From Fidelibacterota bacterium (lineage in GTDB: Bacteria; Fidelibacterota; Marinisomatia; Marinisomatales; TCS55), in the NCBI GenBank assembly GCA_004124385.1, contig SCKN01000001.1, positions 340,606-404,605 of the forward strand: 64,000 nt of DNA. The letters are read 5' to 3'. The notes below the pieces were generated by a model. It was not told the origin of the DNA. It ran no database searches and was given only the letters and a program-made list of their open reading frames with translations. This document shows, in pieces, positions 16,647 to 26,136 of this stretch; the stretch's first letter is position 1; the number at the start of each line of letters is the position of its first letter. The position numbers and the translations under genes were made by a program.

Positions 16647-17516
16647 TTAATCAATTCTAGTTCCATCATCAGACTGAATAATATAGGATTTTCCTCCAAC
16701 CCGTTCAATCGCTTGAGCAACTTCCTCGAAGTTTTCCGGTGCATAAGCAAAGATACAACCACCACCGCCCGAAACATTAATTTTTCCTCCTAAACCGCCA
16801 GCACCCAAAGCAACATCCAACATTGTATCAATCTTGGGTGTACTAACTTTTAAGACATCTCGCAATATTTGATGATGTGTTGTTAACAAGTGTCCAATCC
16901 GATGGTGATCAATGTTAACTTTTTCCAATTCTATTAAAGCTTCCTTAAGCAGATTCCGGTTTTTGATTGTTTATCTAAAAAGGAATTTTTGCTCATCATT
17001 TAATAGTGACAAATCCAAATTATCTCCGCAAGAATGGATATCCATATTTTGATTTCTGACTTTTAATATTTGAATTATTTCAAGTCTTGCATCTCGACAT
17101 CGATTCAAAATCCCCATAGTGTCCTTTGGTCCACAGGAGTCTCCCAATACTAATGTGCCCAAATTTGGTTTCAAGGTCTGAATAGCAATGTCACGCTCGG
17201 ACTATAAATAAATCAAATGTCCCATGGCTGTAGAATATTGATCCATCATGCCGCAAGGTTCATTGAATTCTTCCACCTCTGCTTTATAAGCTAATTTGCC
17301 AATCTTTTGCTGATTCCATTTCACCGGCTCGTCCGCCACTTGGGATAAAAAATGGATCCAACTTACCACAATCGCAGATGAACTACTGGTACCGGCTTGA
17401 ATTGGAATTTGGCTTGTTATTTCACACACAAAACCAGATGAAAATTTGAGCACTTCATTTTGGCAAATAATAATCCCACTTTTTATAAAATTTTGTCTAT
17501 TCATGTTCTTATCCAT
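16647..17516 (-). pseudogene. Decayed GHMP-family sugar kinase
   Basis: Three open segments (17202-17516, 16971-17174, 16647-16928) lie in one and the same frame, separated by a TAG at 17202-17204 and a TAA at 16971-16973. Read through, they give one GHMP kinase: PIQAGTSSSSAIVVS (ATP-loop) near the start, then EEFNEPCGMMDQYS, LGTLVLGDSCGPKDT, LLTTHHQILRD, and the C-terminal GGKINVSGGGGCIFAYA. The expected first 80-100 residues (the PGR-x-x-L-x-GEH-x-D region) are missing; a stop of the upstream methyltransferase frame lies just before. Yet ATG 17516 has a strong AAAGGAG five bases upstream. Segments 2 and 3 begin only with TTG. A truncated product of about 104 residues may still be made. Confidence 0.82.
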
Positions 17517-17531
17517 AAGAACTCCTTTGAA

Positions 17532-18362
17532 TTATTTTTTGAAAAGCAGTAAGCGGTAGGTTTTGTATTTGATGAAATTTGCACCAGTGAGTTGACCGGT
17601 GAAATACACCCTGTTGATTTTTGCAAGGCGTTTTTCATATTTCCAATTCAAAAAACCGGTAAGCTTTGGATAGTTGCTTTCCAGATATTCGCCGGACATG
17701 GTTTTAATGGGTTCAAGAACTTCAGTGACAAATTTATCCAACAGGTCATTTGTTGGGGCTGTTTCTTCAGTTATATCAATATCCGTAAGTTTATTCAGAG
17801 ACGTTGATGATATTTTATCATCAAATGATTTCCATTTATGTCCACCGCCTAATGGACTTTTTCCCGGGAGATCTTTTCTGAAAAAATCACAAATGAGAAG
17901 ATGACCGCTGTCCGGAAGCATTTCGACGATTTTATCAATAGAAAAACCTAGTTTAACATATTGGAAACTCTCACTGAAAAGAATCATGTTATATGTTTTG
18001 TCTGCATCGAGATCTTCAAATTCACATACATGTACCGTTGATTGATTACCCAACTTTTTACGAATATTTTCTGCAAGAAATTCACTGGGCAGAACACAAT
18101 CCACTTCATAGCCAAGACCGAGTAATTTCTTCGCCAGATTTCCCGAACCACTGCCCACATCCAGAATGGACTTAACACCTTCAGGTATATTATCAATAAT
18201 GAGCTTTGAATGACGATATTGTGCTTCAGCAAAATTTTGAGCTGTGGCGGTTTTATCATCGGGCCAATAACCGTAGTGTAAATCTTCTGTATCCATAAAA
18301 AAACGGCCAATGAGCAATCCAATATCAAGCCCAACTGCTTTTGAGTCAATTTTTTTAGTCAT
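17532..18362 (-). CDS. Class I SAM-dependent methyltransferase
   Basis: 276 residues. Motif I is ILDVGSGSGNL at 66-76, the SAM-binding glycine loop, followed by a putative acidic post-motif and the motif IV-like NMILFSESFQY; LICDFFRK is the post-IV strand. These features fit the methyltransferase type 11/25 families of small-molecule methyltransferases. The acceptor is unknown. It lies 3 bp downstream of the sulfotransferase gene and 15 bp upstream of the GHMP kinase remnant, so it is probably the last working gene of the accessory operon. Confidence 0.82.
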   Translation of the reverse strand: MTKKIDSKAVGLDIGLLIGRFFMDTEDLHYGYWPDDKTATAQNFAEAQYRHSKLIIDNIPEGVKSILDVGSGSGNLAKKLLGLGYEVDCVLPSEFLAENIRKKLGNQSTVHVCEFEDLDADKTYNMILFSESFQYVKLGFSIDKIVEMLPDSGHLLICDFFRKDLPGKSPLGGGHKWKSFDDKISSTSLNKLTDIDITEETAPTNDLLDKFVTEVLEPIKTMSGEYLESNYPKLTGFLNWKYEKRLAKINRVYFTGQLTGANFIKYKTYRLLLFKK

Positions 18363-18365
18363 GTT

Positions 18366-19091
18366 TTAATAAATCCTTTTACGATGGAGAGTATCATAAT
18401 ATAAGAGACATTCTTCATAAATATCTTCCAGTTCATGAGGTAATTCTTCATTGGGAGCTGTGTATGGCTGAAAACCGGTAGACGCTTCTACACTCCTATA
18501 CCAATACTTGGACCAAACACCGTCTATCTCTCTTGGCCCTGCCGGCCAAGATAACATATCATCACTGAAAGAAATTCCCACAGCAGAACATAATTTTGAT
18601 AAAATATCTTTTGGATTTATTAAAATATCTTTTGCATCCACGATTGCCGGCTCGACGCAATCTCCATCCGTTAGTAAACGATATAATTCAACTTGTTGCG
18701 GATAACCCAAAAGATTAGAATGTGTTACATCATATTTTTTGCTATAAGATAAAATAACTTCCTTGGGATCACGGATGAGAAAACAATTCGTTACATGACG
18801 AGTCCAGGACAGATCCACTCCCGGGAGATTGTGTTGAGCCATGTGTTTTTGATACCAAACCGTTTCACCATTGGGCGCAGGGACAGTAATGTTTTCCACA
18901 ACTTTATCCCATTCACATTCCATGGATTTTAAAATAGCTTTCCGTCCAGGATGATCTATATCCGTATTTTTCAAATAAAATCCGTAAAAAGGTTCATCAG
19001 AAACGAATGTATCCGAGCGGTTCTCAAACGAACGCATCATTGCCGTTGAAATATTCCTCGGTCCGGACCACATGGCGATATGTTTAGTCAC
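18366..19091 (-). CDS. Sulfotransferase-family protein
   Basis: 241 residues. The N-terminal WSGPRNISTAMMRSF (residues 8-22) is the loop that binds the 5'-phosphosulfate of PAPS, and LIRDPKEVILSY with Arg107 and Ser115 matches the 3'-phosphate-binding motif of sulfotransferases. Such a protein would transfer sulfate from PAPS to a hydroxyl or amine. Relatives of this subfamily are often annotated next to, or joined to, class IV aminotransferases, as here: its start overlaps the aminotransferase stop by 8 bp. The acceptor is unknown. Similar proteins are often misnamed branched-chain aminotransferases because of that link. Confidence 0.75.
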   Translation of the reverse strand: MTKHIAMWSGPRNISTAMMRSFENRSDTFVSDEPFYGFYLKNTDIDHPGRKAILKSMECEWDKVVENITVPAPNGETVWYQKHMAQHNLPGVDLSWTRHVTNCFLIRDPKEVILSYSKKYDVTHSNLLGYPQQVELYRLLTDGDCVEPAIVDAKDILINPKDILSKLCSAVGISFSDDMLSWPAGPREIDGVWSKYWYRSVEASTGFQPYTAPNEELPHELEDIYEECLLYYDTLHRKRIY

Positions 19092-19998
19092 TAGGCGGGT
19101 ATAATGAATTGATGTCTTTTTTATAGATGTCTTGGAGACGTTCTGTCAATGCTCCCCTTTTTCCGGCGGAAATTTCATGTCCATCCATTTCCACCACAGG
19201 AATGACTCCGGCGAAGGTGCCGGTTACAAAAGCTTCATCGGCTGAATGACAGTCTTCCACATGAAAATTTCGTTCGAAAACAGGAATGTCATTTTCCTTA
19301 CACAAGCGAATGATGCTACTGCGAGTGACACCATTCAGACAATATTCACCGGTGGACGTCCAAACTTCTCCTTGGCGAACAATGAAAAAATTAGTGGAAT
19401 TACACGTGGACACATTGCCATGCATATCGAGCATAAGTCCTTCGTCAAACCCCAGTCGATCTGCTTCAATACAAGCAACGATGCAGTTCATTTTACTCAA
19501 CGTATTCCATTTTGGATCTTGTGTTTTTGACGTTCCCCTGCGGACACTTACTGTTCCCAATCTTATGCCTTTCTTTTTTACATCTTCACTAGCAATCTTG
19601 TACTCAGGTATGACAACAATAGTCGGTCCACTTACATTTACATTTGGATGTTGGTGCGGTGTCTTTTTCAATCCCCGGGAGACGATGAAGCGAATATGAA
19701 TATCCGATTCCATATTATTGGCTGCCAACGTTGAAATGATGATTTCTTCAAGCTCCGTTTCTGTTTTACCAATATCCATTCCGATGGCTGCTGCGCTTTC
19801 AAAAAGCCTGCGGAAATGCTCGTCCTTGTGTACCAATTGCTTGTTATGGTAACGGATCCCTTCCCAGACACCATCACCTAGTAAAAATCCGCTGTCAAAA
19901 ACCGACACTTTTGCTTCATTGCGGGGAACGATCTTCCCATTCACATAAATGAGAATTTCTTCATTCCGCGTATCAAATTCGTATTCGTGGGTACCCAT
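19084..19998 (-). CDS. Class IV aminotransferase (BCAT/D-amino acid transaminase fold)
   Basis: 304 residues, PLP-dependent. The pattern SVFDSGFLLGDGVWEGIRY near 32-50 and the PLP lysine, most likely Lys163 in DPKWNTLS, define the fold type IV family; CLNGVTRSSII and FVTGTFAGVIPV are the C-terminal phosphate-binding blocks. The usual glutamate after G-x-V-x, which contacts the PLP ring nitrogen, is replaced: here the text is GNVSTCNSTNFF with Thr198 at that place. Substrate (branched-chain, D-amino acid or an unknown amine) cannot be assigned. It overlaps the sulfotransferase by 8 bp and meets the amine oxidase at one base. Confidence 0.85.
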   Translation of the reverse strand: MGTHEYEFDTRNEEILIYVNGKIVPRNEAKVSVFDSGFLLGDGVWEGIRYHNKQLVHKDEHFRRLFESAAAIGMDIGKTETELEEIIISTLAANNMESDIHIRFIVSRGLKKTPHQHPNVNVSGPTIVVIPEYKIASEDVKKKGIRLGTVSVRRGTSKTQDPKWNTLSKMNCIVACIEADRLGFDEGLMLDMHGNVSTCNSTNFFIVRQGEVWTSTGEYCLNGVTRSSIIRLCKENDIPVFERNFHVEDCHSADEAFVTGTFAGVIPVVEMDGHEISAGKRGALTERLQDIYKKDINSLYPPSD

Positions 19999-21449
19999 TA
20001 CCCTTTTATAATTTCCTTGCTGGCACGCACACCGGATTCGATAGCGCCATTCATGGACGAATGAAATTCAGATGTATGTTCACCTGCAAAATGCACCTTC
20101 TCTTCCGGTTGAGCCAGGATATCAATAAAATCCCACTGTCCCGGACTTACATAGGTATAACTGCCCTGCATCCAGGGATCTTCATTCCAGTATTTGGAAA
20201 TTCCCGATTCCCAAACATACGGAGTTTCCGGCCATAATTCGGTTGCGGTTTCCCGAGCTACACGGAGTCGTTGTTGCTCACTCATATTCCCCAGTTTCGC
20301 TGCTGAAGAACCGGACGTAAACGATAATAGAATTCCCCGGGGACCCGGCTGATCAATGGAAAAATGATAAACCCGGCGTAGAGGAGTATCAGTGAACACA
20401 CGTTGGCCTACACTGCCCTGTTCATCCCAGATGCGGCGCTTGAACTGCATGGCAATCTTCATGACCTCGCCATAGGACTGCTTGCGGATACAGTGCATCT
20501 TTTCATCTGAAAAATAGGGAGTGATTTTCGTTTTCCGCAAAATAGTTAACGGCATGGCAATTACACAACGATCGGCTGACATGGCGGTCAATTTTCCGCT
20601 TTCTTCAAAAGATACTTCTACACCCTTCTTATTATGACTGATCTTTTTCACCGGGCAGTTGTATTTCAAATTGGATGCTATTTCTTTTGCAAATCGTTTT
20701 GGTAATTGATCATTACCGCCAAAGATCCGTCCTTCCATCGTATTCTCGCTGAAAGCTGATGCATAGAAATGACCGAAGACCATATTCAGCGCTGACATTT
20801 GATCGGGAGTGCAGGTGCTTTCGGTGGCGTTGGTGTACGTATACAATTCGATTATATCTTTAGGTGCACCCTCTTTGCGTAAAAGTTGGGCAGCGCTCAT
20901 ACGGTCTAATTTCATTACATCGCTCGGAATATCATTGGGATCCTTGATCTTTTCCACCCAGTGCCGGACGTATTCGAATTCCTGACCGAATAGCTTTCCG
21001 CCAACTGTTCCATCATACGGCAGTTGTTGTTTGAATGTTTTGAAATCAGCCATATCGTATTTCTTACCGCGGACGTAAATACCGTCATACAATTTTGCCG
21101 GAAGAATATCCAGACCAAATTCTTTACAATATTTACGGGCATATTCATCACTGGAATCCACATATTCGGCACCCATTTCGGCGTATAAATTATCGGCAAA
21201 GGGATCGCGACAGGTCCGCACCCTGCCTCCGGGACGGGAACGGGCTTCCAGAACAGTAATATCGATGCCGGCATTTTGCAATTCATAGGCACAGGAAACA
21301 CCCCCAAGGCCAGCGCCGATAATGATTACTTTTTCAGCAGAACTGTTACCAGTAACATTCCATAACGAACGGGCAGGAGTTATCACCATGCCAGCCGCTG
21401 CGGCAGTGCTGGCGCGTAAAAAATCTCTACGTGTTATTATTTTTGACAT
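19998..21449 (-). CDS. Tat-exported flavin amine oxidase
   Basis: 483 residues. A twin-arginine signal TRRDFLRAS (6-14) and an alanine-rich hydrophobic stretch indicate folded export to the periplasm. The FAD dinucleotide fold starts IIIGAGLGG (43-50) and is followed by EARSRPGGR, typical of monoamine-oxidase-like enzymes; HFAGEHTSEFHSSMNGAIESG near 450 is the C-terminal FAD block. Such enzymes oxidise primary or secondary amines or L-amino acids to imines with H2O2. It leads a four-gene minus-strand operon with the aminotransferase, sulfotransferase and methyltransferase. AGGAA precedes the ATG. Confidence 0.9.
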   Translation of the reverse strand: MSKIITRRDFLRASTAAAAGMVITPARSLWNVTGNSSAEKVIIIGAGLGGVSCAYELQNAGIDITVLEARSRPGGRVRTCRDPFADNLYAEMGAEYVDSSDEYARKYCKEFGLDILPAKLYDGIYVRGKKYDMADFKTFKQQLPYDGTVGGKLFGQEFEYVRHWVEKIKDPNDIPSDVMKLDRMSAAQLLRKEGAPKDIIELYTYTNATESTCTPDQMSALNMVFGHFYASAFSENTMEGRIFGGNDQLPKRFAKEIASNLKYNCPVKKISHNKKGVEVSFEESGKLTAMSADRCVIAMPLTILRKTKITPYFSDEKMHCIRKQSYGEVMKIAMQFKRRIWDEQGSVGQRVFTDTPLRRVYHFSIDQPGPRGILLSFTSGSSAAKLGNMSEQQRLRVARETATELWPETPYVWESGISKYWNEDPWMQGSYTYVSPGQWDFIDILAQPEEKVHFAGEHTSEFHSSMNGAIESGVRASKEIIKG

Positions 21450-21541
21450 AAGTTGAAATTCCTGATTGAATGATTGCGGGTAATTCTACAAAACATTCAT
21501 CTAATTTGCACACTAATACAATCAGTTGTGTAGATTTAAAA

Positions 21542-23023
21542 ATGGAATTGCCCATCTTTCATCCTTTCGAAAACGAATGGATCACCTTTGGCGCTTTTTT
21601 TGTATCCATATTCTTTTTGATAGGCATAGCCGAATTTGTACGCTCAAAGTTAAAATGGGGCCCGGAAGCCAGCCGTAAAATGGTCCATGTTATCGTGGGG
21701 ATCATGATTGCCTGCTGTCCTCTCATATTCAGATCGAATATTCAGCCTATTACCCTGGCGGTCATTTTCATTGTGGTGAATACTGCTGCATTGAACATTG
21801 ATGCATTCAAAGGCATGCATGATACGCAGCGTAAGACGTTCGGGACAGTCTACTTTCCCATCGCATTCCTCATTTTGGCAGCATTCTTTTGGGAAAAGCC
21901 CATTACCCTGATCCTGTCCATGCTGGTCATGACCTTCGCCGATACATTAGCATCTTTTGTTGGCGAACATGAAAAACGACCTTTAAAATTCCGTTTATGG
22001 GAAGATGAAAAGTCCCTCCAGGGCAGCGCGGCTATGTTCCTCTCCACTGCGCTTATCATTTATGTGGGCACAGACTTTTTTGCCTGGTTCTTTGATGCTG
22101 CGTTTTTTCTGCCTTTGGAAGTGTTGATTGGCTGCGCAGCATTTACAGGAATGGCGGCGACCTTGGCCGAAGCCGCTAGCAATAAAGGGTCTGACAACTT
22201 TTCGGTGCCAATAGTGACAGCCATTGCCTACGAATCTTATCTCATTAACTACAGCCACGGATCTTTACCTGCATTATTAACCTGGACTTTGGGTTCTGCA
22301 GTGATCTTTTATGCCGCTTACAAACTGCGATCCCTGAACGGTGGAGGAGCAGTTGCAGCATTTATTATGGGAATATTCATTTTCGGTGCTGGCGGAATCC
22401 AGTGGATCGCACCTGTCCTGGCTTTTTTCATTTTATCATCCCTACTATCAAAATTGGGGAAAAAGTCCGCTGAAACCACGCAAAAGAGCTCGAATAGGGA
22501 TGTGCTGCAGGTATTAGCCAACGGCGGAATACCCATGATCATTGCCATTGTGAATTTTTTTCAGCCTTTTGACCTGGCTTATATAATGTTCTTGGGCGCT
22601 ATCGCTGCTGCTACAGCAGACACCTGGGCAACAGAGATCGGCTTTTTCAACAAAAAGGATCCTCGTCATATTTTGAATTTTAATACAGTAATAAAAGGCA
22701 CTTCCGGCGGGGTGACACTTTTAGGTTTTGTTGGATCTGCTTTAGGAGCTGGAACTATTGCTTTAATTGGAATGAATTGGCTAAATGATTTTCCAATTCA
22801 CTGGATAGTATTAGCAGGATTTGTCGGGAGCTTTGTAGACTCCATTCTCGGCGGAAGTATTCAAGCCAAGTTCATCTGTTCAGCCTGCGGTAAAGAAACT
22901 GAAAAAAGAATGCACTGCCAAATGCATACCAGCCACTTAAAAGGTTTCAAATGGCTGGATAATGATGGGGTAAATTTTGTAAATACGATCGTGGGTATGG
23001 TGATAATATATATTCTTATATAA
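21542..23023 (+). CDS. Dolichol/phytol-kinase-like - DUF92 fusion membrane protein
   Basis: About 493 residues from ATG 21542, with 12 or more membrane segments. The first half has the VTE5/SEC59-like pattern ASRKMVHVIVG then FADTLASFVGEHE and GSAAMF, as in CTP-dependent polyprenol or phytol kinases. The second half is a DUF92 (TMEM19-like) domain: LNGGGAVAAFIMG, TADTWATEIG, KGTSGGVT and a CSAC...HC cysteine cluster. This two-domain fusion is known in bacteria; the lipid substrate is unproven. The frame is open to ATG 21470, but that would put the start only 20 bp from the divergent amine oxidase, on its ribosome site, so I prefer 21542 although no clear Shine-Dalgarno is seen. Confidence 0.82.
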   Translation: MELPIFHPFENEWITFGAFFVSIFFLIGIAEFVRSKLKWGPEASRKMVHVIVGIMIACCPLIFRSNIQPITLAVIFIVVNTAALNIDAFKGMHDTQRKTFGTVYFPIAFLILAAFFWEKPITLILSMLVMTFADTLASFVGEHEKRPLKFRLWEDEKSLQGSAAMFLSTALIIYVGTDFFAWFFDAAFFLPLEVLIGCAAFTGMAATLAEAASNKGSDNFSVPIVTAIAYESYLINYSHGSLPALLTWTLGSAVIFYAAYKLRSLNGGGAVAAFIMGIFIFGAGGIQWIAPVLAFFILSSLLSKLGKKSAETTQKSSNRDVLQVLANGGIPMIIAIVNFFQPFDLAYIMFLGAIAAATADTWATEIGFFNKKDPRHILNFNTVIKGTSGGVTLLGFVGSALGAGTIALIGMNWLNDFPIHWIVLAGFVGSFVDSILGGSIQAKFICSACGKETEKRMHCQMHTSHLKGFKWLDNDGVNFVNTIVGMVIIYILI

Positions 23024-23081
23024 AAAACGTGAATTAGACGGACCAATCCCCGCTAAAAAACTTGCTTGTTTTTATTTCGTC

Positions 23082-23272
23082 TTAAATAACTTTATAGACA
23101 AGAACGCTCACCATAACGATGAGAGCAATAAAGATCAAGGCAACGCCCATGTTGCCTTTTTTAATCTCTTCCCATTCGTCAATATCGGTGGAGAGCCAAT
23201 CGAAGACCTTAATAGCTAAACCGACGCCAAGAGAAAAACGAGCAATAATAGTTTAGTGTATTTTATCATCAT
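23082..23272 (-). pseudogene. DUF350-type small membrane protein, frameshifted
   Basis: The frame 23252 to the TAA at 23082-23084 reads GVGLAIKVFDWLSTDIDEW then EEIKKGNMGVALIF and a membrane helix, the hallmark core of DUF350 membrane proteins. It has no usable start codon and is preceded by a TAA. A second frame starting with tandem ATGs at 23272/23269 (MMIKYTKLLLLVFLLASV) overlaps it. One small indel near 23250-23258 would join them into a normal protein of about 62 residues. Either a frameshift mutation or a sequencing error; a non-canonical start is less likely. Confidence 0.62.
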
Positions 23273-23308
23273 GTTGTAAGAACAGGCGCAAGTTTACAAG
23301 ACTCACTA

Positions 23309-24490
23309 TCACGAGTTAATCGCTTTTCCATTCTTAATGATCATTTTAATGGGCACGTCTGAATCATGAAACGGAATATTCTCCAGTTTTTTTACGTCCC
23401 AGACGATAATGTCGGCCTTCCTACCGATGGTGAGCGATCCAACTTTGTGTTCCAAATTCAATGCTTTGGCTGAAAAATATGTTGATGACGCAAATGCCTG
23501 TTCTACTGTCATATCCATATGTTTAATGGCCAGGTGTATGATAAATGGCATGGATTGAATATGACAGCTACCGGGATTGAAGTCTGTGGCCAGAGCAATA
23601 TCGATACCCATTTCCATCAACGTTTGAGCCGGAGCATAGGTGTCTTTATCAAGAAAGAATGTCGTTCCCGGCAGTAATGTGGCTGTTATATTTTTATCCG
23701 CCAATTTTTGCATTCCCACAGAACTCACTGCCATGAGGTGATCAGCTGAAATTGCACCTACGTCAGCCGCTAGTTCCGCCGCTCCGGAATCCTCGAATTC
23801 ATCGGCATGCAATCGGGGAATTAAACCGAGTTCTTTGGAAGTATTTAGGATTCTTCGAGATTGATCCACATTGAAATAACCATTTTCACAGAATACATCG
23901 CAAAATACAGCTATACCCTGCTCCGCCACAGCTGGAATCATTTCATTACATAATAAATCCACATAACCATCGCGGTCATCAGCAAACTCCGGCGGGAATG
24001 CATGAGCACCCAGAAATGTGGGAATCATGTCCATTTCATGGCGTTTATTTACTTGATGTATCACTTTAAGTGATTTTAATTCTGACTCTATATTTAAGCC
24101 ATATCCAGATTTACATTCAATAGTAGTTGTGCCTAATTTTATCATCTGATCCATACGCTTGGAAACGCGCTCAATCAGCTCATCTTCCGATGCATTTCGA
24201 ACGCCATTGATGCTGGAATTGATGCCTCCGCCCTTTGCAGCTATTTCTTCATACGTCACCCCGGCTTTCCGCATGGCTACTTCGTCAACTCTCAAATTTA
24301 AAAATACCGGATGCGTGTGAGGATCCACAAACCCGGGAGTCACAAGACATTCACTGCAATCAAATTTTTCACCAATGCCTTTTTCGACAATGATTCCATC
24401 TTCAATTGCCAGTGACGTATTTGATGTTGTTTCAACTTCTCCTGAATCAGGGTTGAATGTTGTTAAATTTCCTATATTTTCTAGAATCAT
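23309..24490 (-). CDS. hutI: Imidazolonepropionase
   Basis: Third enzyme of histidine degradation, opening the imidazolone ring to N-formimino-L-glutamate. An amidohydrolase of 393 residues from this start; [14 protein letters not shown] carries the His-x-His metal ligands, RLHADEFED a further His, and TDFNPGS the catalytic Asp. The open frame reaches 24517, but ATG 24490 overlaps the hutU stop in an ATGA arrangement (4 bp), the tight coupling expected, so I chose it. Confidence 0.94.
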
Positions 24491-26136
24491 TTCATCATGG
24501 GAATATTCACATTCCATTTTTTCGCATTTTCGATGGCGCGATCATATCCTGCATCAACATGACGAAATAACCCCGTTCCGGGATCAGTCGTTAATACTCG
24601 TTGAATGCGTTCTTCCATCTCTGGTGTGCCATCAGCGCAAATCACTTGACCTGCATGAATAGCCAGCCCCATACCTACGCCGCCACCTTGATGAATAGAA
24701 ACCCACGTTGCACCACTTGCAGTATTTGCTAATGCATTGAGTAAGGGCCAGTCAGCCACCGCATCCGATCCATCTTGCATGGCTTCAGTCTCTCGATAAG
24801 GCGATGCAACAGATCCCGTATCCAGATGATCTCGACCAATGACAATTGGAGCAGATAATTCTCCACTGGCTACCATACGATTAAGCTCCACACCAAATTT
24901 TGCCCGTTGCGTATAATCCAGCCAGCAAATTCTTGAAGGTAAGCCCTGAAACTGTACTTTTTCTCGCGCCATTTTTATCCAGCGAGTTTGCGTTTCATCA
25001 TCGGGAAACATGTCTAATATCTTTTGGTCTGTTTTATAAATATCCTCCGGATCGCCTGATAATGCTACCCAGCGAAACGGCCCCCTGCCGTCACAGAATA
25101 ATGGCCGCACATACGCCGGAACGAATCCCGGGAAATCGAATGCATTTTCTACGCCTGCTTTCTTTGCTTGTCCACGGAGATTATTCCCATAATCAAATGT
25201 AATGGCTCCCATTTTCTGCAGGTCGAGCATTCCTTGGCAATGTTCTGCCATGGACCGAAAACTTTCTTTAACATATTTACTCGGATCATACTTGCGCAAA
25301 TCGAGCGCTTGCTGGTACGTCATGCCATTAGGAACATAGCCGTCCAATTCATCGTGGGCGGATGTTTGATCGGTCACCATGTCCGGAACAATACCCATTT
25401 TAGCGATTTCTGGTACAATATCGGCGGCATTACCTAATAAACCAATTGATAGTGGTTCACCCTTTGCGGCGGCGTTTCTGGCTAATGTAAGAGCGTCTCC
25501 CAACGATTCTGTCCCTACATCCAGATATTTGGTTTCTAAACGACGCTGAATGCGATATGGATCAATTTCAATACAGATTACAACTCCATTATTCATGGTG
25601 ACGGAAAGTGGTTGAGCGCCACCCATTCCACCCAAACCAGCGGTCAATACAAATTTTCCAGTGAGGTCGCTATTGTAATGCTGTTTCGCTGCAACAGCAA
25701 ATGTTTCGTACGTTCCTTGAAGAATGCCTTGCGTTCCAATATATATCCATGAGCCTGCCGTCATTTGACCGTACATCATGAGCCCTTTTTGATCCAGCTC
25801 GTTGAAATGCTCCCAATTAGCCCATTCCGGTACTAGATTTGAATTTGCAATCAACACTCGGGGAGATGTGGTATGTGTTCGAATAACGCCCACCGGTTTA
25901 CCCGATTGCACCAAAAGCGTCTCATCCGGTTCGAGTCTTATTAATGTTTCGAGAATTGCCTCAAAGCATTCCCAATTCCGAGCTGCTTTTCCCTTTCCTC
26001 CGTATACAACAAGCTCATCTGGGTTTTCTGCCACATCCGGATCCAGATTATTCTGAATCATACGGTAGGGTGCTTCAATCTGCCAATTTTTACATGTGAG
26101 TTTACTCCCTTGTGGAGCATGAATAGTCTTGAGCAT
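24487..26136 (-). CDS. hutU: Urocanate hydratase (urocanase)
   Basis: Second step of histidine degradation: adds water to urocanate using tightly bound NAD+ as an electrophile. 549 residues, normal. The NAD loop is [12 protein letters not shown] near 170, and the conserved cysteine motif [16 protein letters not shown] is present near 410. A good AGGAG precedes the ATG. hutU-hutI forms a two-gene operon; the first enzyme, histidine ammonia-lyase (hutH), and the last (hutG) are not in the window. Confidence 0.96.

Follow-up and report, generated by a model that had tools for sequence, protein, structure and literature searches.

A lysine-less class IV aminotransferase-fold protein paired with a putative PAPS-type sulfotransferase in Marinimicrobia

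Four closely packed genes of a Fidelibacterota bacterium raise the question whether they serve one pathway, or whether a smaller functional unit is set among them. They lie in a stretch of 64,000 nucleotides (hereafter the window; GenBank assembly GCA_004124385.1, contig SCKN01000001.1, positions 340,606 to 404,605), follow one another on the minus strand and encode a flavin amine oxidase with predicted twin-arginine (Tat) export (AO; 483 aa, 19998-21449, Pfam Amino_oxidase 5.4e-64), a class IV aminotransferase-fold protein without the catalytic lysine (AT; 304 aa, 19084-19998, Aminotran_4 1.7e-42), a sulfotransferase of the 3'-phosphoadenosine 5'-phosphosulfate (PAPS) type with a GTG start (ST; 241 aa, 18366-19091, PF19798 Sulfotransfer_5, 1.8e-54) and a class I S-adenosylmethionine (SAM)-dependent methyltransferase (MT; 276 aa, 17532-18362, Methyltransf_23 2.4e-6, motif DVGSGSG). 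AO and AT overlap by 1 bp, AT and ST by 8 bp, and ST and MT are 3 bp apart, which supports the operon layout proposed in the preliminary description of this DNA; its family names agreed with Pfam for AO, AT and ST, and weakly for MT (Methyltransf_23/25/11). That description had read the four as working enzymes of one pathway acting on one amine. We find that the putative functional unit is the AT-ST gene pair, with AO and MT as optional neighbours, and that AT is probably not an aminotransferase.

The recurrent gene pair

The window belongs to the Marinimicrobia (Neomarinimicrobiota), as its close homologues lie on contigs of this phylum. The distribution of the four genes was compared by Fisher tests in 101 Marinimicrobia genomes, of which 45 carry ST (ST+) and 56 do not (ST-). 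AT was present in all 45 ST+ genomes, adjacent to ST and in constant order, and in two of the 56 ST- genomes (P ~1e-26), one of these two having AT at a contig edge, and the proposed pairing of AT with ST is thereby strongly supported. No association with ST was found for MT (17/45 ST+ vs 20/56 ST-, P = 0.84) or for AO (8/45 vs 16/56, P = 0.24), and AO adjoined AT-ST in 3/45 ST+ genomes. In a set of 50 AT-ST loci, for which two collections were used and some genomes are counted twice, the two genes were on the same strand in every case and AT lay upstream in 49, the sole exception being the order ST-AT in a Bacteroidetes metagenome-assembled genome (MAG; locus L047). The flanks of the pair vary by lineage and include genes for a SpoU methylase, a nitroreductase, a CHASE2 cyclase, peptidases and others, and the pair is retained in the 0.7-1.0 Mb genomes of family f15. 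An open-access literature search returned no paper on the AT-ST pair.

The complete set AO-AT-ST-MT was found in this genome alone among the 101. At the site beside a DUF92 gene, genome G002 carries MT only, G005 and G006 carry AT-ST-MT, the congener G001 carries AO-AT-ST on a contig that breaks off within ST, and the present genome carries all four; AT-ST is the recurrent core of this mosaic site. Besides, AO and MT form a neighbouring pair of their own in genus g6 (G039, G036, G017), another genus of the family. A conserved neighbourhood in relatives, which the preliminary description had set as its check, was therefore seen for AT and ST, which stay together, and not for AO and MT, which stand apart from them in most relatives.

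Some departures from the common arrangement were also observed. In one streamlined genome of 1.0 Mb (G083:C1:141549-143099, locus L090) stops and a frame break degrade both AT and ST, and the copies of close relatives are intact; an interruption seen inside AT of G087 has no biological meaning and comes from a stretch of N in that contig. A lysine-less AT without ST (L142, on G036:C40) adjoins an alanine racemase gene.

The assignment of ST as a PAPS-type sulfotransferase is supported by its motifs, its fold and its linkage to genes for PAPS synthesis. In the 5'-phosphosulfate-binding loop WSGPRNxSTA (residues 8-17) the residues W8, S9, P11, R12, S15 and T16 are invariant in 17 sequences down to 40% identity, as are R107, P109 and S115 of the 3'-phosphate motif RDPxxxxxS in the same sequences; both PAPS motifs are intact, and the loss of PAPS binding that had been named as a refutation does not appear in the sequence. 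A search of the PDB by sequence gave antibody noise only, and a fold search (Foldseek) was used instead with the AlphaFold model (pLDDT 92). Its best matches were tyrosylprotein sulfotransferase, the CurM and OLS sulfotransferases, Stf0 and StaL (E to 2.8e-7), with TM-scores of 0.4-0.55 that speak for likeness of fold and not of subfamily, and all 34 matches with E <= 0.001 were sulfotransferases.

The host encodes a fused ATP-sulfurylase/adenosine 5'-phosphosulfate (APS) kinase (L143:4525-6231), and a search of its genome for PF01507, the PAPS-reductase/CysD family, gave no match, a combination that fits predicted synthesis of PAPS for sulfation. In G052 the gene order is AT-ST-ATP-sulfurylase/APS kinase (Sat), the last overlapping ST by 17 bp, and in several genomes of family f15 an APS-kinase match lies a few kb from the pair. 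The best annotated plasmid relative of ST is a CyrJ-type sulfotransferase, a PF19798 protein with 33.6% identity over 99% of ST that is likewise encoded near an APS kinase; the Dolichospermum plasmid cluster around it looks, by its gene order, like the cylindrospermopsin (cyr) cluster. CyrJ has been proposed to be PAPS-dependent (PMC2885083). Unlike ST, this relative belongs to a polyketide synthase/non-ribosomal peptide synthetase natural-product cluster, and the region viewed shows no AT-type partner.

The altered active site

Transaminases of fold type IV hold pyridoxal 5'-phosphate (PLP) by a Schiff-base lysine, a glutamate at N1, a tyrosine at O3' and a phosphate cup of Arg, Thr and Thr (PMC12429042). 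AT of the window has Asn165 in place of the lysine, Lys169 in place of the tyrosine and Thr198 in place of the glutamate, and keeps the cup as Arg64, Thr225 and Thr261. The same pattern runs through 50 aligned AT sequences, all of them ST-paired homologues: Asn stands at the Schiff-base place in 49/50 (His in 1/50), Lys at the O3' place and Thr at the N1 place in 49/50 each, and the cup residues are kept in 50/50 (Arg64), 50/50 (Thr225) and 48/50 (Thr261, with Ser in 2/50). The protein of the Bacteroidetes MAG (L047:8722-9621) is the exception at all three places, with His for the lysine, Glu retained and Leu for the tyrosine; there the class IV protein and ST adjoin a gene for tryptophan dioxygenase. 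Two other class IV proteins of the host genome (L151, L152) keep both Lys and Glu, which indicates that the alignment is sound. Two plasmid homologues at 35-38% identity (Alkalihalophilus, Thiothrix) are canonical branched-chain aminotransferases with the lysine present, and all 17 lysine-less plasmid homologues have Asn at the lysine place.

The altered protein is well conserved. Family-specific polar residues are densely kept (NSxSK/RxN, STCNSTN), and a dN/dS of ~0.07 indicates strong purifying selection, as a rough figure since dS is high. In the tree, all lysine-less proteins, L047 and the proteobacterial homologues fall into one clade (SH-like support 0.999), within which the ST-paired members are L047 at the base, L048/L071 and the main Marinimicrobia group, so that pairing with ST may be ancestral in the clade as far as this small sample goes.

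Among solved structures, 7z79, an 'aminotransferase-like protein' of Variovorax paradoxus, is nearest to AT both in sequence (1.4e-85) and in fold (TM 0.93, ~44% identity); 9j32 is its N174K mutant. Like AT, 7z79 has Asn at the place of the catalytic lysine and the motif S-S/T-CNSTN; unlike AT it has Arg where the window protein has Lys169, and it stands with the proteobacterial homologues that do not adjoin a PF19798 sulfotransferase. As 9j32 mutates exactly this Asn, its depositors presumably noticed the same loss; the open-access literature search returned no paper on 7z79. With the branched-chain and D-amino-acid transaminases of PLP fold type IV (5mqz, to which the TM-score is 0.87, and 1daa) AT shares the fold, the phosphate-cup residues and the Aminotran_4 domain, and it differs from them in the three residues that hold the ring. 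The name class IV aminotransferase thus stands for the fold and falls for the active site, and AT is probably not an aminotransferase. What appears new is the predicted loss of catalytic residues in a protein that is still conserved and obligately paired with ST.

Possible roles of the pair

We favour, with a probability of roughly 0.5, a two-gene module in which ST sulfates an amino- or imino-acid-like metabolite and the AT fold serves in a non-transaminating role. ST would be a soluble PAPS-dependent enzyme that adds a sulfo group to a small molecule of this kind. AT, its pyridoxal chemistry dismantled by loss of the Schiff-base Lys, the N1 Glu and the O3' Tyr and its phosphate cup kept, would most likely bind the same substrate family as ST, would hold PLP or pyridoxamine 5'-phosphate (PMP) non-covalently or another phosphorylated ligand, and would carry out or assist a step before or after sulfation. 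The module builds on what can be read from the sequences, namely the pairing, the three lost residues, the intact motifs and fold of ST and a PAPS synthase gene carried by the host and, within the operon, by one relative; the class of substrate is proposed from the neighbours of proteobacterial homologues, and the role of AT is likewise a proposal.

Lysine-less homologues of AT were found on proteobacterial plasmids of Ruegeria, Dinoroseobacter, Mameliella, Yoonia, Paracoccus, Thioclava, Agrobacterium, Pseudomonas, Pantoea and others. In 15/15 annotated cases, transporters for amino acids of the ATP-binding cassette (or tripartite ATP-independent periplasmic) type lie beside the homologue or within a few kb of it; a gene for a pyrroline-5-carboxylate reductase or for an ornithine-cyclodeaminase/pyrroline-2-carboxylate reductase is found close by in five of these plasmid cases, and one for a ClC-type chloride channel in five. 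The Mameliella homologue shares 4 bp with a true choline-sulfatase gene, after which come DapA-like, D-amino-acid-dehydrogenase-like, aldehyde-dehydrogenase and proline-racemase-family genes in an arrangement that resembles hydroxyproline breakdown. Full membership in a hydroxyproline pathway was not adopted for this cluster and is kept as a hint, the family models being below cut-off except for choline-sulfatase. Small amino or imino acids thus seem to be the company of the AT fold, which is also linked to sulfate esters by two separate routes, and by analogy with these neighbours we infer that the Marinimicrobia pair may make a sulfated amino- or imino-acid-like compound. The homologue adjoins a ClC-type chloride channel, often along with ProC, in L157, L163, L164, L057 and L054, and such channels might point to halide-releasing chemistry on amino acids.

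Several observations weigh against the two-gene module as we read it. The proposed class of substrate is drawn from gene neighbours in other phyla, and no PF19798 gene was seen by the proteobacterial AT homologues in the regions viewed, so that AT does not need ST. PAPS of the host is not for ST alone, since three further sulfotransferases (Sulfotransfer_3) are encoded, and the idea of ST as its only PAPS consumer was rejected. The association of ST with APS kinase (33/45 ST+ vs 20/56 ST- genomes, P = 3e-4), which in itself speaks for the module, is uncorrected for phylogeny, and no convincing APS kinase was found in 12/45 ST+ genomes, including G070 and G084, which are 95-96% complete and in which PAPS is a putative donor. 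AT-ST without APS kinase was seen in G070, G084, G087, G090, G093 and G099 of family f7 and in others.

Among the alternatives, it is possible, if doubtful, that AT is a non-catalytic partner (pseudoenzyme) which binds ST, or binds and presents the substrate or a PLP-like effector, the reaction being done by ST alone. The joint loss of all three contacts to the PLP ring from a protein that keeps its fold and phosphate cup would suit such a partner, as would its obligate pairing with ST in Marinimicrobia. However, homologues with these same losses lie, without ST, beside genes for amino-acid transporters and pyrroline reductases and may thus have an activity of their own, and the dense set of kept polar residues also speaks against it.

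A second alternative, which we consider unlikely, is sulfation-assisted chemistry, in which ST would sulfate an amino-acid hydroxyl so that the sulfate can act as leaving group, and elimination or ring closure would be catalysed by the lysine-less AT. Precedents for sulfate as a leaving group exist in aziridine formation by AziU3/U2 (cited in PMC11168924) and in LGS1/ficellomycin (PMC8713700); CurM and OLS are among the closest folds of ST, and the pyrroline/imino-acid reductases and chloride channels beside the proteobacterial homologues are as expected for elimination of HX from a substituted amino acid. Yet CurM and OLS share with ST the general sulfotransferase fold, the link to chloride channels may be unrelated, and AziU3/U2 (PDB 7WUX; aziridine via sulfate elimination) is an analogue by its proposed chemistry only, being described as a novel fold (PMC11168924) and having no AT fold. 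A more novel reading, rather unlikely in our estimate, would make the lysine-less class IV fold a new kind of catalyst that holds pyridoxal or another phospho-ligand non-covalently and acts on an amino or imino acid in its O-sulfated form, by elimination or cyclisation with sulfate leaving, for instance, with ST making the substrate in Marinimicrobia and the proteobacterial homologues using imported substrates.

It is very unlikely that some or all members of the ST family use a donor other than PAPS or are P-loop enzymes of a kinase-like type. The 12 ST+ genomes without a convincing APS kinase would agree with it, as would weak structural matches that reach adenylate and nicotinamide riboside kinases; against it stand the two PAPS motifs conserved in 17 homologues, the 34 fold matches that are sulfotransferases throughout, the operon with PAPS synthase in G052 and the identity to the CyrJ-type sulfotransferase encoded near an APS kinase.

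Neighbouring genes and biological meaning

The pathway of four working enzymes acting on one amine, for which the tight spacing in this genome and the AO-AT-ST order of the close congener G001 can be cited, is hardly credible and was rejected after the neighbourhood and co-occurrence tests, as AT lacks its active-site lysine, AO and MT are unlinked to ST across the 101 genomes and pair with each other elsewhere, the same chromosomal site holds MT only in G002 and no AO in G005 and G006, and AO is exported vs the rest, which are predicted to be cytosolic.

AO has its Amino_oxidase domain over residues 48-481 with the FAD motif GAGLGG, and carries the twin-arginine leader TRRDFLRAS, which scores 21.1 bits against Pfam TAT_signal, just under the cut-off of 22.7. 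Its closest solved relatives are the snake-venom and ancestral L-amino-acid oxidases (7e-45), with which it shares the FAD fold and the conserved Lys of KIxxxF and from which it differs by its bacterial Tat export and by the motif GAMRIPS, which reads GAEYVDS. The Arg of GAMRIPS binds the substrate carboxylate in L-amino-acid oxidases; because it is missing, AO was rejected as an enzyme of this type and an amine is a likelier substrate than an alpha-amino acid. As a class I methyltransferase, MT is generic (Methyltransf_23 at 27.8 bits, cut-off 27). Among the evidence gathered, nothing tied AO or MT to the AT-ST reaction beyond local co-transcription. The AO-MT pair of genus g6 forms part of a block aminopeptidase P - AO - MT - (APH kinase - class III aminotransferase) in L123, L124 and L125 (G039, G036 and G017), in which genomes differ at one site by having or lacking AO or MT. 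Aminopeptidase P also stands beside AT-ST in G052, G016 and G021, and its presence at both was considered as a hint of substrates that contain proline, found too thin and not used.

Upstream of the operon and divergent from it lies a gene for a DUF92 membrane protein (21470-23023), whose real start near residue 25 is suggested by alignment with relatives, followed by hutI and then hutU; synteny of this block (21470-26136) is kept across the family. Relatives have a gene of ~176 aa between hutI and DUF92 (L134:3661-4191) that is all but absent from the window, which retains only a remnant match of 18 residues at 23278-23331. Immediately downstream of MT comes a GHMP-type sugar kinase gene on the minus strand (16647-17516), which internal stops split into at least two open reading frames; its counterpart in a relative (L060, G006) is covered by a single continuous alignment, and the broken copy may reflect either an assembly error or a pseudogene. 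Scans for promoters and terminators gave results near the shuffled expectation and were uninformative.

The G+C content of the operon had been described as visibly richer than its surroundings and taken as a sign of transfer. Against the window mean of 0.376, the enrichment is true of AO (0.459) and AT (0.430) and not of ST (0.391) and MT (0.372), which are near the mean. The rich block runs on through DUF92 (0.431), hutI (0.415) and hutU (0.458), three genes that congeners have in synteny and at similar G+C; since these neighbours are equally rich and syntenic, base composition gives no support to transfer of the operon, and this idea was rejected.

Genome records label proteins such as AT 'aminotransferase class IV' or 'D-amino acid aminotransferase', and pathway reconstructions of marine bacteria thereby count a transamination that probably does not happen. 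The obligate pairing of AT with ST, kept even at genome sizes of 0.7-1.0 Mb, points to a sulfated small molecule of an uncultured marine phylum, and both this metabolite and the lysine-free chemistry of a PLP fold are directly testable with two small soluble proteins.

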